Below the pieces are notes generated by a model. The model was not told the origin of the DNA. It worked only from the letters and a program-made list of their open reading frames with translations, and searched no databases. Source: an uncultured Clostridia bacterium (GTDB taxonomy: Bacteria; Bacillota; Clostridia; TANB77; CAG-465). Taken from it: a DNA stretch of 37,263 bases. The translations under genes were made by a program, and so were the position numbers. Below, one piece after another: positions 6,732 through 23,498 of the stretch (within the stretch, counting starts at the first letter, position 1; each line of letters opens with the position of its first letter). Location: contig CANPWO010000009.1 in assembly GCA_947584535.1 (NCBI GenBank), positions 1-37,263 on the forward strand. Reading direction: 5' to 3'.

Positions 6732-8282
6732 TTATATATTATTCTTTTTGGATATTTTTTCTTTTATCTTTAAAATAAATTCATCAAATCCTATTACTGC
6801 TAGTGGTATTAATATTACTACATAAGGAATAACATATCTAGATTTTGCTTCCCAAATAATGTGAAAACTAAAGCCTCCTAAAAATATTAATATTAATAAT
6901 AACATTTCATTACTTATATTTTTTCTTTTTAATATAACACAAATTAATGAACCTATATATATAATACAAGTAATTATTTTTTGAGATAATTTTATAATTT
7001 TCCAATTTCTATCTTCAAACAATGTGGTTAGCATCTTATTTTTTGTCATATCAACATCTCCTTGCATATTGTAACAATCACTTGCCATAATTGGTTCTGC
7101 CCACATAGAAATAATTTTATCTCTATAGAATCTATATGTATAATGTGGATGTTCTGTTAAGTATTTTAATCTATTTATTAATTTTTCTTTTGTTTGATTT
7201 TCAACTGTTTTATCGTCATTTGAGTGATTTTGCATTTCTGCATTAATAATAGCTACTTCGTCATTAAACCATCCATTTGCTAAATTACCCTCACTCATTC
7301 CCATATATAAGTAATTAATAATTGATTTTTCTTTTAAATTATTTAATCCATACTTATTTGATACTAAAATAGTTAAAAGTTTATTTGGAGCAATTGCTAA
7401 TATAACAAACAAAACAATTGTTAATGTCATTATGACTCTTTCTTTTATTGATTTATCTCCGCGTTGCAAATAAATAAATAAATAAATAAATATAGCTATA
7501 ACAAATATAATAGAATTACTTCTTGTAATAACAGCAAGTGCCATACATAAGCCTGAAAAAATAGCGAAACATATTTTTTTGTTTTTTTCATATTTTATAA
7601 TAAATACAATCGCCCAAATACTTAATGATAATCCTATAAAATCACCATATACCCACGTAGATAGCAAACTAATTGGTATAAATCCTAATATCAATATAAA
7701 AAATAATAAATCATTACCTTTTTTATTATTTTTTTCACTTTTATAAATCCAGTATAATCCCAATACTGTAAATATATTAAATATAACATTTACCAATCTA
7801 AGTAATTGAACGTTATCGGTTCTAAATATTTGCATTATGGTTTCAAAAAAAGCTACAATTCCAATATTATTTTTATAAAAAGCAAAATATTTTAATATAT
7901 GCTCCTTCATAATATCTTTGTTATTAAACAATAGTCTTGCCGTTCCATAAACCATACCTGGATCTGCATCTGGTTTTGTTATTGAATTATATATCCATAA
8001 TACTTGAAAGGTAATATATCCAAGCATAGCTATTACTATAATTAGTATCTTTAAGTTTTTATTAATTTTTATTTTACTTATATAATAAGTAATTGCTATT
8101 AGTCCTATAATAGAAGCAATAATAACTCCTAATTTAATTATTCTCATACTTTGTATCTCTGTATGTTCTGTACCCTTTAAAATAGATACGTCATATTTAA
8201 TATTCAATATAAGTATAAAGCCTAATACAATTATTGCAATTATTATAATTATTTTTTTTATAAAGTTATATAATTTTTCTAT
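6732..8282 (-). CDS. Polytopic GT-C-like membrane protein, copy A (probable ATA start)
   Basis: This integral membrane protein has about ten hydrophobic helices and resembles polytopic GT-C glycosyltransferases: an acidic loop after helix 3 (KPDADPGMVYG), STWVYGDFIGLS, ITRSNSIIFV, and a large external loop with several conserved Trp and His residues before the last helices. An obvious open reading frame can be drawn from a TTG at 8207, but the frame continues upstream through 25 more codons that encode a good membrane helix (IIIIIAIIVLGFIL). It reaches AGGAGG at 8291-8296; TAG closes it at 8295-8297. Only ATA (8280-8282) or ATC (8283-8285) could start there, at 8 or 5 bases from the ribosome site. 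The ATA start gives 516 residues. Function is inferred from topology and context. Confidence 0.75.
   Translation of the reverse strand: MEKLYNFIKKIIIIIAIIVLGFILILNIKYDVSILKGTEHTEIQSMRIIKLGVIIASIIGLIAITYYISKIKINKNLKILIIVIAMLGYITFQVLWIYNSITKPDADPGMVYGTARLLFNNKDIMKEHILKYFAFYKNNIGIVAFFETIMQIFRTDNVQLLRLVNVIFNIFTVLGLYWIYKSEKNNKKGNDLLFFILILGFIPISLLSTWVYGDFIGLSLSIWAIVFIIKYEKNKKICFAIFSGLCMALAVITRSNSIIFVIAIFIYLFIYLQRGDKSIKERVIMTLTIVLFVILAIAPNKLLTILVSNKYGLNNLKEKSIINYLYMGMSEGNLANGWFNDEVAIINAEMQNHSNDDKTVENQTKEKLINRLKYLTEHPHYTYRFYRDKIISMWAEPIMASDCYNMQGDVDMTKNKMLTTLFEDRNWKIIKLSQKIITCIIYIGSLICVILKRKNISNEMLLLILIFLGGFSFHIIWEAKSRYVIPYVVILIPLAVIGFDEFILKIKEKISKKNNI
7468..7491. repeat. Six-copy AAAT microsatellite inside copy A
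   Basis: Six perfect copies of the tetranucleotide AAAT lie within the coding region, where the minus strand reads as alternating Leu/Phe/Ile/Tyr codons (IFIYLFIYLQRG). A change of one unit would shift the reading frame. Confidence 0.85.
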
Positions 8283-8395
8283 GATATATTCCTCCTATAT
8301 ATAATAATGTTAGTTAAGAAATTTAACTTAGCATTTTTTATTTAATTTTATATTATTTTCATATTGTATTTTCAATTTCAAATAGAATAATGCAA

Positions 8396-9952
8396 TTACT
8401 TTTTATATTTTTTCTTGTTGGATACTTTTTCTTTTATCTTTAAAATAAATTCATCAAATCCTATTACTGCTAGTGGTATTAATATTACTACATAAGGAAT
8501 AACATATCTAGATTTTGCTTCCCAAATAATGTGAAAACTAAAGCCTCCTAAAAATATTAATATTAATAATAACATTTCATTACTTATATTTTTTCTTTTT
8601 AATATAACACAAATTAATGAACCTATATATATAATACAAGTAATTATTTTTTGAGATAATTTTATAATTTTCCAATTTCTATCTTCAAACAATGTGGTTA
8701 GCATCTTATTTTTTGTCATATCAACATCTCCTTGCATATTGTAACAATCACTTGCCATAATTGGTTCTGCCCACATAGAAATAATTTTATCTCTATAGAA
8801 TCTATATGTATAATGTGGATGTTCTGTTAAGTATTTTAATCTATTTATTAATTTTTCTTTTGTTTGATTTTCAACTGTTTTATCGTCATTTGAGTGATTT
8901 TGCATTTCTGCATTAATAATAGCTACTTCGTCATTAAACCATCCATTTGCTAAATTACCCTCACTCATTCCCATATATAAGTAATTAATAATTGATTTTT
9001 CTTTTAAATTATTTAATCCATACTTATTTGATACTAAAATAGTTAAAAGTTTATTTGGAGCAATTGCTAATATAACAAACAAAACAATTGTTAATGTCAT
9101 TATGACTCTTTCTTTTATTGATTTATCTCCGCGTTGCAAATAAATAAATAAATAAATAAATATAGCTATAACAAATATAATAGAATTACTTCTTGTAATA
9201 ACAGCAAGTGCCATACATAAGCCTGAAAAAATAGCGAAACATATTTTTTTGTTTTTTTCATATTTTATAATAAATACAATCGCCCAAATACTTAATGATA
9301 ATCCTATAAAATCACCATATACCCACGTAGATAGCAAACTAATTGGTATAAATCCTAATATCAATATAAAAAATAATAAATCATTACCTTTTTTATTATT
9401 TTTTTCACTTTTATAAATCCAGTATAATCCCAATACTGTAAATATATTAAATATAACATTTACCAATCTAAGTAATTGAACGTTATCGGTTCTAAATATT
9501 TGCATTATGGTTTCAAAAAAAGCTACAATTCCAATATTATTTTTATAAAAAGCAAAATATTTTAATATACTATCTTTCATAATATCTTCGTTGTTAAATA
9601 ATGAACTTGCCGTTCTATAAACCATACCTTGGTCTGCTCCTGGTTTTATTACCGAATTATATATCCATAATACTTGAAAAGTAATATATCCAAGCATAGC
9701 TATCACTATAATTAGTATCTTTAAGCTTTTATGAATTTTTATTTTACTTATATAATAAGTAATTGCTATTAATCCTATAATAGAAGCAATAATAACTCCT
9801 AATTTAATTATTTTCATACTTTGTATCTCTGTATGTTCTGCACTCCTTAAAATAGATACATCATATTTAATGTTTAATACAAGTATAAAGCCTAATACAA
9901 TTATTGCAATTATTATAATTATCTTTTTTATAATGTTATATAATTTTTCTAT
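8396..9952 (-). CDS. Polytopic GT-C-like membrane protein, copy B (probable ATA start)
   Basis: This is the tandem paralogue of the 6732 gene. The proteins are identical from KYFAFYKNN to about LKIKEK near the C-terminus. They differ in the first 115 or so residues (for instance KPGADQGMVYR against KPDADPGMVYG) and in the last dozen (VSNKKKYKK). The first in-frame ATG is at 9817 and has no ribosome site. Upstream codons remain open with mostly synonymous or conservative differences from copy A and encode the same N-terminal helix, back to AGGAGG at 9961-9966. No ATG, GTG or TTG occurs in frame between the stop of the preceding gene (9995-9997) and 9817, so ATA (9950-9952) or ATC (9953-9955) is the likely start. 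The ATA start gives 518 residues. The role is probably sugar transfer outside the membrane (inference). Confidence 0.75.
   Translation of the reverse strand: MEKLYNIIKKIIIIIAIIVLGFILVLNIKYDVSILRSAEHTEIQSMKIIKLGVIIASIIGLIAITYYISKIKIHKSLKILIIVIAMLGYITFQVLWIYNSVIKPGADQGMVYRTASSLFNNEDIMKDSILKYFAFYKNNIGIVAFFETIMQIFRTDNVQLLRLVNVIFNIFTVLGLYWIYKSEKNNKKGNDLLFFILILGFIPISLLSTWVYGDFIGLSLSIWAIVFIIKYEKNKKICFAIFSGLCMALAVITRSNSIIFVIAIFIYLFIYLQRGDKSIKERVIMTLTIVLFVILAIAPNKLLTILVSNKYGLNNLKEKSIINYLYMGMSEGNLANGWFNDEVAIINAEMQNHSNDDKTVENQTKEKLINRLKYLTEHPHYTYRFYRDKIISMWAEPIMASDCYNMQGDVDMTKNKMLTTLFEDRNWKIIKLSQKIITCIIYIGSLICVILKRKNISNEMLLLILIFLGGFSFHIIWEAKSRYVIPYVVILIPLAVIGFDEFILKIKEKVSNKKKYKK
9138..9161. repeat. Six-copy AAAT microsatellite inside copy B
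   Basis: The same six-unit AAAT tract as in copy A at the equivalent codons, with the unit number unchanged. It lies within the block that is identical between the copies. Confidence 0.85.
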
Positions 9953-9994
9953 GATATATTCCTCCTCATATAAATATATTAAAGGATTACTTTT

Positions 9995-11965
9995 TTACAA
10001 ATGTACCATAATAATTTGTGACACAGTATAAATTTGCAATACTAAAATAGAAATTGCAACAAATTTATTGATATTTTCTACTTTATAAGTTGTTTTAACC
10101 TTTAAAACACTTCCTAGCAATAACATTACAAGTGGTAAAATAGGTAAAAAATACCTTCCTTGCACTCCAGAAATACTATCTTTTCCAATCGGTGTCCATT
10201 GAACATATAAACTTGTAAATACAAGTAGTATTGTAGTTATAGTAATTAAAGCTATCCATACTAACTGATATGTTTTAAATTTATTTTTTAATTCTTCATC
10301 AGTAATAGCAACAAATAGATAAATAGCTAAAATAAAATAAGGTACAATAGCATATAATTTTACCAATTCTCCCCAACCTAAATCAGCTCCGAATAATGAC
10401 ATTAAATAACTACTTCCATTAAGATTTATTGTATATAAAACATTTTGTACATACTGGATTGGATTTTGTAACGCCAACAACACTTTTATTTTAGAATCTC
10501 CTTCTCTAAAATCTGCCAAATATCCACTTGCAATTTTTAGCCAAATCAAATTTAGGATAAGAGCTGTTCCTGCAATAACACAAAAATTAAATATTTTATT
10601 TTTATTATTTTTAAATTTTTCTTTTGGTATTATTAGAATTAATCCTACCAGAGGTATATAAACAATTTTACAAAGTGCTATTATAACTGACATTATTAAT
10701 AATAATATTTTTTCTTTTAACTTTATCTTTTCTTCGTTTACAAACGTTAAATGCAATATATACGCAATGTATAAAAACGACATAGATATAGTCATTGCAT
10801 CTGGAGATAGAGAGGAAAATCCCTCTATAGCAATTGGTATCATTGCTGGTATTAGTAACAATTTTTTTCCAAATGGCATTATTTTTATCGCCAAATATAA
10901 TAACAAAACTGAAACTAACATATTAAAAAATCTTCCAGCATAAGTAATTAAATATACATTATTTGTAAAAAATCTTGAAATAGTAATTCCAATTGCTTGT
11001 GGGATATATTGTACAAATGAATATAGTGCAGCTGTTTCTGGATTTAATAATACTTTATCTTCTTCATCTAATCGAATATGTAGTTTCTCTTTAACTTGAC
11101 TATAATCCATAGTTGCCCAATCTATCGGCATAACACCAGCTACTGCTCCTGGCATCATTGAGCCCTGTATTCCGTCATTATTAGGTGTCTTTAAATGCCA
11201 TTCCGATACTTCATATGCTTTTAACCAATGATAATATTCATCATGATTTTTAAAAGTAGGCATTGACAATAAAAAGAATATACATAAAAATGGAACTATC
11301 ATAAGAAATAAATTTTCTACTTTTATATTCTTTTTGGTATAAATAATAATTGAAATAACAATTACACCAACTACCAATATAAATAAAATACCTATATAAA
11401 TTATACATCTAATATTGCTCTTATATAAATCTTGAAACGCTAATGAAATATTATTCTTTGCTTCTCCGTCTATGTATAGTGTATCATTTACTGCTTCATT
11501 TAGATTAGTTGTTTTTAATGAATAAAATTTTTCTGCTCCACTTAAATCCTCAAATTTGATATAAATACTATATTCTTTATCCTTAGAATTTGTTTGTTTT
11601 TCAAAATTTAGCATATATTGTGGATTTTCTCTTATATAGTTACGAGTAATTTGTTTTTCTTCTAAAATCTTTCCATTATAATCTTTAATGCCTAGTAAAA
11701 CTTTTCCTCCACAATTAGCATCATCTTTATAGCTTTCAAAATTTAAAATAACTCTTTCAAGATTGTTATCAACTGCTACAAAATTTTGTATGACCTCCAT
11801 ACCTTGACTTACATCTTGAATTACTCCTGTTGTTTCTTGAAGCCTTCCTTTTGTATATAACTTATTTTTTATTGATACGGTATAATTTGCTACTAATAAT
11901 ATTAAAGAAATAGCTATAAATAATATAATTAAAAATTTCCAATCTTTTTTTATTGTAATTTTCAT
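9995..11965 (-). CDS. DUF2142-family polytopic membrane protein
   Basis: The 656-residue protein has an N-terminal helix (residues 10-30), then an extracytoplasmic beta-rich segment of about 150 residues (TGVIQDVSQGMEVIQNF to YIDGEAKNN), then about ten helices. The motif MPTFKNHDEYYHWLKAYEVS, in the loop after the second helix, matches the DUF2142 signature (DE..H...AYE), an acidic-loop motif suggestive of GT-C enzymes. The next loop, GIQGSMMPGAVAGVMP, is also seen in the family. A final loop holds QWTPIGKDSISGVQGRYFLP, where the GVQGRYFLP box is a strong family mark. The start follows AGAGGAAATT. Family function is unproven; membership in a polysaccharide locus suggests transfer of sugars or other groups to a surface glycan. 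Confidence 0.88.
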   Translation of the reverse strand: MKITIKKDWKFLIILFIAISLILLVANYTVSIKNKLYTKGRLQETTGVIQDVSQGMEVIQNFVAVDNNLERVILNFESYKDDANCGGKVLLGIKDYNGKILEEKQITRNYIRENPQYMLNFEKQTNSKDKEYSIYIKFEDLSGAEKFYSLKTTNLNEAVNDTLYIDGEAKNNISLAFQDLYKSNIRCIIYIGILFILVVGVIVISIIIYTKKNIKVENLFLMIVPFLCIFFLLSMPTFKNHDEYYHWLKAYEVSEWHLKTPNNDGIQGSMMPGAVAGVMPIDWATMDYSQVKEKLHIRLDEEDKVLLNPETAALYSFVQYIPQAIGITISRFFTNNVYLITYAGRFFNMLVSVLLLYLAIKIMPFGKKLLLIPAMIPIAIEGFSSLSPDAMTISMSFLYIAYILHLTFVNEEKIKLKEKILLLIMSVIIALCKIVYIPLVGLILIIPKEKFKNNKNKIFNFCVIAGTALILNLIWLKIASGYLADFREGDSKIKVLLALQNPIQYVQNVLYTINLNGSSYLMSLFGADLGWGELVKLYAIVPYFILAIYLFVAITDEELKNKFKTYQLVWIALITITTILLVFTSLYVQWTPIGKDSISGVQGRYFLPILPLVMLLLGSVLKVKTTYKVENINKFVAISILVLQIYTVSQIIMVHL

Positions 11966-22192: not shown

Positions 22193-22561
22193 TTATTCCT
22201 TTCCTTTTTCATCTATGAATATATCTGAAAAATCAATGTCTTTTATTGCCCCGTATTTATTAATAAAGTAGTTTTTTAAATAATCTTCTGTATTTCTAAC
22301 TCCTTTATTTCCATTAGTTCCAAAATCTGCTAGTGAATAATGTATACTTCCATTTTCCTCTTTTTCTACAAATTTAATTTCATCTCTTCTTAATACAGAA
22401 TTATTTAAAAAAATAGGATTATGTGTATTAAAAATTAACTGTGCTCCCTTTTTATTTATTTCATCATTATGAAAAATATTTATAATATTCATAATTGCCA
22501 TTGGATGAATTGAAGCATCTAATTCATCAACTATTAATGTATATCCGCTCCTTAATTGCAA
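22193..22561 (-). pseudogene. AAA15-type defence ATPase, C-terminal fragment (frameshifted)
   Basis: This is the ending of the ATPase in the neighbouring reading frame. It carries the Walker B and D-loop block (TLIVDELDASIHPMAIMNII) and the H-loop segment LIFNTHNPIFLNN, both intact, then a C-terminal stretch ending KDIDFSDIFIDEKGKE. The apparent start (TTG at 22561) has no ribosome site and is internal to the broken gene. Removing one base at about 22545-22551 would join AIKSGYTLIVDELDAS without a gap. The split falls just before Walker B, so the upstream fragment alone cannot hydrolyse ATP. Confidence 0.85.
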
Positions 22562-23498
22562 TAAAAATTAACGGAAATATATTTATAAATCTAAGTGTTC
22601 CAAATGATTCAAACCAATCAGCAGGTAATCCCACATTTTTACCTTTAGATTCTATTATAGATAAAGGCTCAGAAACTCCTTTATCATTATCTATTTGATA
22701 TGCTATATGCTTTGAAGTTAATCCAAATATTTTTGCAGCTTTATTTAAATTTTTATCAACAAATAATTTTTTATTTAGGTCATTAGAAGATACTGTAGGT
22801 AAAATATGCATTTTATCAAAATGATATATAATTTTAAAATTATTTTTAAACCATTCATAAATAATATCAAATATTTTCTTGCTATAAAGAGATTTAAACA
22901 TTCCATTTAAAAATAATTCTTTACCATCCAAATTTGTTCTTGCAATTTTTTCAGCAGTTTCTTTAGAAAAATTTTCAATTTTAAAATTATCTATTACATC
23001 TAGTCTTCCAATAGTTAAATCATCATTTCTTTTATAAATCATCGAATTATTTATATATAGTTCTTCATTAATTATTTGCCTATCAAATTCTAAGTCAAGA
23101 AATTTTCCAAGTAATATTGATAAATTATAATTAAATATAAAGCCTTGTGAATAAAATTTTATAGAAAAACTTACCGGTTCATCACTTTTGCTTTCTACAT
23201 TTGGAATAAGCTCTAATTTATCGACGGCAGTATTTGGTGTTGTTACTGTTTCTTTATTTCTAATATTACCTTCCAAAACTATTGAACGCAAGACATCCAT
23301 TCCACCAATAATATTTGTTTTCCCTGAAGAATTTGGTCCATAAATAGCAGATGAAGATAATGCTCTTATAGTTTTTTTATTATTAATTTTTTTACATATA
23401 ATGCTATATTCTAAATCCTTTACTTGAGTTGGAATCATCTTAAAATCTAATTCTTGTTTAAATGATTTATAATTTTTCATTTTAAATTCTAATAGCAT
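22527..23498 (-). pseudogene. AAA15-type defence ATPase, N-terminal fragment (frameshifted)
   Basis: The ATG at 23498 follows AGGAGGAAAT. It begins with LEFKMKNYKSFKQELDFKM, the usual start of AAA15/AbiLi/RloA ATPases, and has Walker A as AIYGPNSSGKTNIIGGMDVL. A middle part of about 200 residues without helices into the membrane leads to DWFESFGTLRFINIFPLIF, the signature region, where the frame is lost. With the downstream fragment and one base removed it gives about 434 residues, full family length. The gene has a perfect consensus promoter with an overlapping palindrome. The frameshift means either an inactive defence unit, a reading error, or a recoding event. Confidence 0.85.

Follow-up and report, generated by a model that had tools for sequence, protein, structure and literature searches.

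Probable AUA start codons behind strong ribosome sites in two tandem GT-C-fold glycosyltransferase genes of an uncultured Clostridia bacterium

We found that two tandem genes for membrane glycosyltransferases of an uncultured Clostridia bacterium are probably translated from AUA. The genes lie on the minus strand of contig CANPWO010000009.1 (positions 1 to 37,263, called the window here), and in each of them an ATA codon follows a strong Shine-Dalgarno (SD) sequence, AGGAGG, at a gap of 8. The start at ATA that had been proposed in the original prediction is supported by the modal SD spacing, by the starts of homologues, and by ATA starts on three other genes of the genome: infC, a superoxide dismutase (SOD) gene and a YgjV-family gene. 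AUA starts behind strong ribosome sites have already been reported in Staphylococcus aureus, and the two genes are of this known type.

The two start sites are alike. On the minus strand both copies read AGGAGG (8291-8296 in copy A, 9961-9966 in copy B), then AATATATC, then ATA GAA AAA TTA TAT AAC, with the proposed start codon at 8282-8280 in copy A and 9952-9950 in copy B; the predicted placement of AGGAGG 8 nt before ATA is thus exact. In copy A an in-frame TAG (8297-8295) overlaps the ribosome site, so no usual start lies between it and TTG at 8207-8205, 25 codons downstream of the ATA. In copy B the frame is open up to the stop at 9995-9997, and ATG, GTG and TTG are absent before ATG at 9817-9815, 45 codons downstream of the ATA. 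Both of these features had been described beforehand, and both are present in the sequence. The upstream frame of the two genes encodes a hydrophobic helix. An RNA structure at the start was rejected, as 81-nt folds there gained no stability over shuffled sequences (z about 0).

Both genes encode membrane proteins of about 517 residues that match PMT_2 (PF13231) above the gathering cut-off (33.2 against 26.1 bits). Copy A (6732-8282, 516 codons; PF13231 E 7.5e-8) was assigned to the GT-C fold from its open frame, translation and Pfam match, and copy B (8396-9952, 518 codons) from its open frame, Pfam match, AlphaFold model and structural matches. Nine homologues went into the model of copy B (mean pLDDT 76.6, pTM 0.83), whose first helix, at residues 2-29, is confidently predicted; a beta hairpin and another helix come next. 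By Foldseek the model comes closest to GT-C enzymes (oligosaccharyltransferases, protein O-mannosyltransferases, PglB and ArnT; TM about 0.3-0.45, E 1e-4 to 1e-2). Likeness to the GT-C and PMT_2 enzymes lies in this shared fold, in the N-terminal helix and in Asp107, which is invariant among the aligned sequences and sits in what we take to be the loop where GT-C enzymes carry a catalytic acid. The profile TIGR03766 (XrtG-associated glycosyltransferase) aligns its position 8 with residue 7, counting from the ATA; its score of 47.5 bits is far below the curated cut-off of 500, so the genes do not belong to that family. Neighboring genes encode GT2, DUF2304, GtrA, DUF2142 and GtrII proteins and another PMT_2-like protein, and the neighborhood is a glycan-building cluster. 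Elsewhere in the window, two adjacent frames (22193-22567 and 22527-23498) resemble a single ATPase gene split by a frameshift (22193-23498).

No close orthologue was found in 95 related genomes, where the best homologues are 35-39% identical. Further homologues came from Clostridia assemblies, and identity ranges over 26-39% in all; with the best at 39%, an ATG-bearing ancestor is not directly visible. Homologues with readable 5′ ends begin with ATG, GTG or TTG just ahead of the same first helix. Their aligned starts fall at codon 1 (L008 and L003) or up to about 7-10 codons in (L004, L007, L027 and L028), some of them at the codon 8 position (M-K-K against I-K-K here) rather than at codon 1. 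The same-genus sequence L008 reads AAAGGAGATATAAT ATG GAA AAA TTA AGT AAT TTT, compared with ATA GAA AAA TTA TAT AAC TTT here, so that its protein begins MEKLSNF where ours reads (ATA)EKLYNF. The alignment of homologues that had been suggested as a check therefore favours the proposed start, with ATG at the ATA codon in L008 and, in the others, a usual start no more than about 10 codons from it.

The genes arose by tandem duplication of a 1670-bp unit (6745-9968, minus strand); the duplicates, 6745-8298 and 8415-9968, are homologous from the ribosome site onward. A central stretch of about 1.07 kb is identical between them, and the 5′ part of about 400 nt is about 92% identical. An identical core beside a diverged 5′ part could mean that gene conversion took place, that the domains diverged, or that the core was collapsed in assembly; the diverged part includes PDADP against PGADQ at the putative catalytic loop. 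Most simply, the shared ATA either predates the duplication or passed between the copies by gene conversion, and since the copies stem from a single duplication it counts as one event, not two. It had been claimed that the extensions ahead of the usual starts differ mostly at synonymous or conservative positions. This fails for the extension, where codons 1-25 hold only three differing sites, two of them non-synonymous (F7I and I25V) and one synonymous (K10); the TTG/TTA, AAT/AAC and GAC/GAT changes that had been cited are at codons 26, 27 and 31, at or past the TTG of copy A. The proposed dN/dS comparison is accordingly uninformative for these 25 codons with their three differences, while over codons 1-140 it does point to coding constraint (pS 0.154, pN 0.060; Fisher p = 0.011).

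The decisive evidence comes from elsewhere in the genome, where ATA starts were also found on genes outside the window. The infC gene reads TGGAGG TGTTTAGT ATA AAA CAA GAT TTT TTA ATC AAC GAA, again with a gap of 8. Among 31 genomes of the order (L060-L090) infC starts with ATA in 26, ATT in three and ATC in two, hence with a near-cognate codon in all 31, and this self-regulating gene serves as an internal positive control. An Fe/Mn SOD gene (L098, 18900-19535; PF00081 and PF02777) has the SD AAGGAGGT at a gap of 8 ahead of ATA GAC AAC GAA AAA TAT CCA TTT; ten relatives have ATG, TTG or GTG within one codon of this ATA. A YgjV-family gene (L180, 3789-4304; PF10688) has two adjacent ATA codons, one of which is its start, and relatives have TTG or ATG at that position. 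Outside infC, then, the ATA starts tested (SOD and YgjV) are not common to relatives, which fits drift rather than conserved control. With at least three unrelated genes bearing AUA starts, the start type appears real, weak, known, and not special to glycosyltransferases.

That a glycan gene might have a conserved ATA start, and with it IF3-linked control, had been put forward as the point of interest. The conservation proves to be limited to two recent duplicates, whose homologues use ATG, GTG or TTG, and no evidence of such IF3-linked control was found. For infC a near-cognate start is conserved in orthologues; no such conservation was seen for the glycosyltransferases, whose homologues are distant (at most 39% identity). 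Dedicated control of a glycan gene through AUA is not supported: the two copies amount to a single event, their homologues start in the usual way, and AUA also stands on unrelated genes. A broader form of the idea, in which AUA is a maintained control device and the transferases, SOD, the YgjV-family gene and infC form a small IF3-tuned set, strikes us as unlikely. The infC start in all 31 genomes, the retention of strong SDs, and the conserved, medium-dependent AUA start of S. aureus ccpN (PMC13009471) speak for it, and the drift pattern of SOD and YgjV, whose ATA is not shared with relatives, speaks against it.

Alternatively, the ATA codons could be start-loss alleles, the ATG having been lost before duplication and both genes being now effectively silent and decaying. 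This is quite unlikely. The usual starts of homologues would fit it, as would the absence of the gene from most of the genus, which marks it as dispensable. However, neither frame is broken over its roughly 517 codons, their 5′ parts diverged under coding constraint, the invariant Asp107 and a C-terminal EAKSRY motif are kept, and infC and SOD share the ATA codon.

An in-frame ATC directly precedes the ATA in both copies (8285-8283 in copy A, 9955-9953 in copy B) at a gap of 5. Being adjacent and in the same frame, it might itself be the start, and a gap of 5, though a less common spacing, is present at some usual starts. Gap 8, however, is the modal SD-start distance in the sampled genome, both for 500 usual starts whose SD run reaches 5 or more and for 367 strong-SD usual starts with a run of 6 or more. 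ATA at gap 8 is used by infC and SOD, and our survey of strong SDs lacking a usual start (see below) yielded no ATC at gap 7-9. Judging by the spacing and by the ATG of L008 at the ATA position, we prefer ATA as the probable start codon and consider ATC very unlikely.

Translation from the internal TTG 8207 and ATG 9817, with the upstream frame open by chance, is highly improbable. No usual start comes earlier in the frames, and standard gene callers would report these two, yet the perfect SD would be left idle, and within the first 100 codons of either copy a strong SD (run of at least 5) precedes none of the usual starts. A start at the TTG would cut off the conserved first membrane helix, and one at the ATG both that helix and the extracytoplasmic hairpin; no homologue examined begins at the equivalent of the copy B internal Met. 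That the start codon is an artefact of assembly or consensus calling is hardly credible even in a fragmentary genome assembly, for ATA occurs in both diverged copies and in SOD, YgjV and infC, and for infC independent genomes show it too.

Under the preferred reading, initiation at AUA, the codon would be read by ordinary initiator tRNA to give full-length protein with an N-terminal Met. The initiator tRNA of this genome has the usual hallmarks (C1/A72 mismatch and three G-C pairs in the anticodon stem), so altered machinery is not needed, and special translation machinery was rejected as an explanation. A single ATG-to-ATA (G-to-A) change before the duplication, in a genome of about 25% GC, is the most likely origin. 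AUA may cut translation to perhaps a tenth of that from AUG, a loss that would be tolerated because the SD is strong. Since start-codon proofreading leads one to expect IF3 sensitivity for any near-cognate start, the sensitivity of both genes would be a side effect of AUA.

Near-cognate starts are known in several bacteria. In Escherichia coli the AUU starts of infC and pcnB limit expression and are discriminated by IF3, with a feedback role shown only for infC; the starts described here are likewise near-cognate but are AUA rather than AUU. The AUU start of pcnB is also cited in the S. aureus study (PMC13009471). That study used retapamulin ribosome profiling, re-annotation and reporters to map AUA starts behind extended SDs on infC, ccpN and citZ, and an AUU start on cvfC1 (PMC13009471). 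These resemble the present cases in having a strong SD at normal spacing, whereas the glycosyltransferase starts, in an uncultured Clostridia-type lineage, are predicted from sequence. In ccpN and citZ reporters AUA gave about 10% of the AUG level, and ccpN up to 30% in rich medium (PMC13009471). In Listeria, ATG-to-ATA change of rsbW lowered expression without abolishing it; rsbW start mutants with ATA or ATT are described there, along with an ATT start on infC and an ATC start on rnhC (PMC13068326). The rsbW alleles are selected mutants of a regulatory gene, in contrast to the state fixed here in two paralogues.

The survey covered about 1.10 Mb of this genome (about 1.59 Mb in total) and, for two congeners, 0.39-0.40 Mb apiece. 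It retained coding frames that had a strong SD but neither an SD-preceded usual start nor an in-frame ATG farther upstream. This yielded 23 sites at gap 7-9: ten ATA, three ATT and ten others. ATA or ATT thus occupies 13 of the 23, against a background of 13% for ATA, ATT and ATC together (p 9e-7, with paralogues and orthologues counted separately); as a decoy control, 29 scrambled motifs gave 14% ATA, ATT or ATC. This genome has 947 coding frames of 100 codons or more, and the six ATA and two ATT sites among them make up approximately 0.8%. For five of these eight near-cognate cases, homologue starts or conservation lend support: the two transferases, infC, SOD and YgjV. Weak cases include L138, which is VirB4-like and begins mid-family, and L051, a messy cluster; several non-ATA matches are gene fragments beginning mid-domain (L173 and L099).

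L051 (3967-7417, contig C13 of this genome) holds frames with ATA or ATT behind strong ribosome sites together with frame breaks, and two of its proteins had no Pfam match when tested. L101 (17993-18811, also of this genome) encodes a 272-residue protein with an ATT start at SD gap 8 and adjoins tRNA-Tyr and tRNA-Met genes; it matched nothing in Pfam or NCBIfam, and among the 38 genomes searched no other one has a relative. In three congeners a DUF512-like gene (L162, L189 and L193) has ATA or ATT directly after GAGGTG or GGGGTG, leaving its start ambiguous because of the in-frame GTG inside the ribosome site.

For the two glycosyltransferases the finding means mainly a corrected annotation. 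Gene callers limited to ATG, GTG and TTG shorten such proteins, here by the first membrane helix, or miss them. The occurrence of several AUA starts per genome in the genus is a more interesting lead than the glycosyltransferases, and with AUA-initiated genes standing beside an AUA-initiated infC, this genome allows a test of an IF3-responsive set against tolerated drift. Tentatively, and at somewhat less than even chances, AUA (with AUU) may be a regular minor start class in this lineage of small, A+T-rich Clostridia-type bacteria, at about 1% of genes and well above the handful of cases from model Bacillota. If so, a scattered set of genes would be tied to the level of IF3, and their N-termini would be systematically misannotated.
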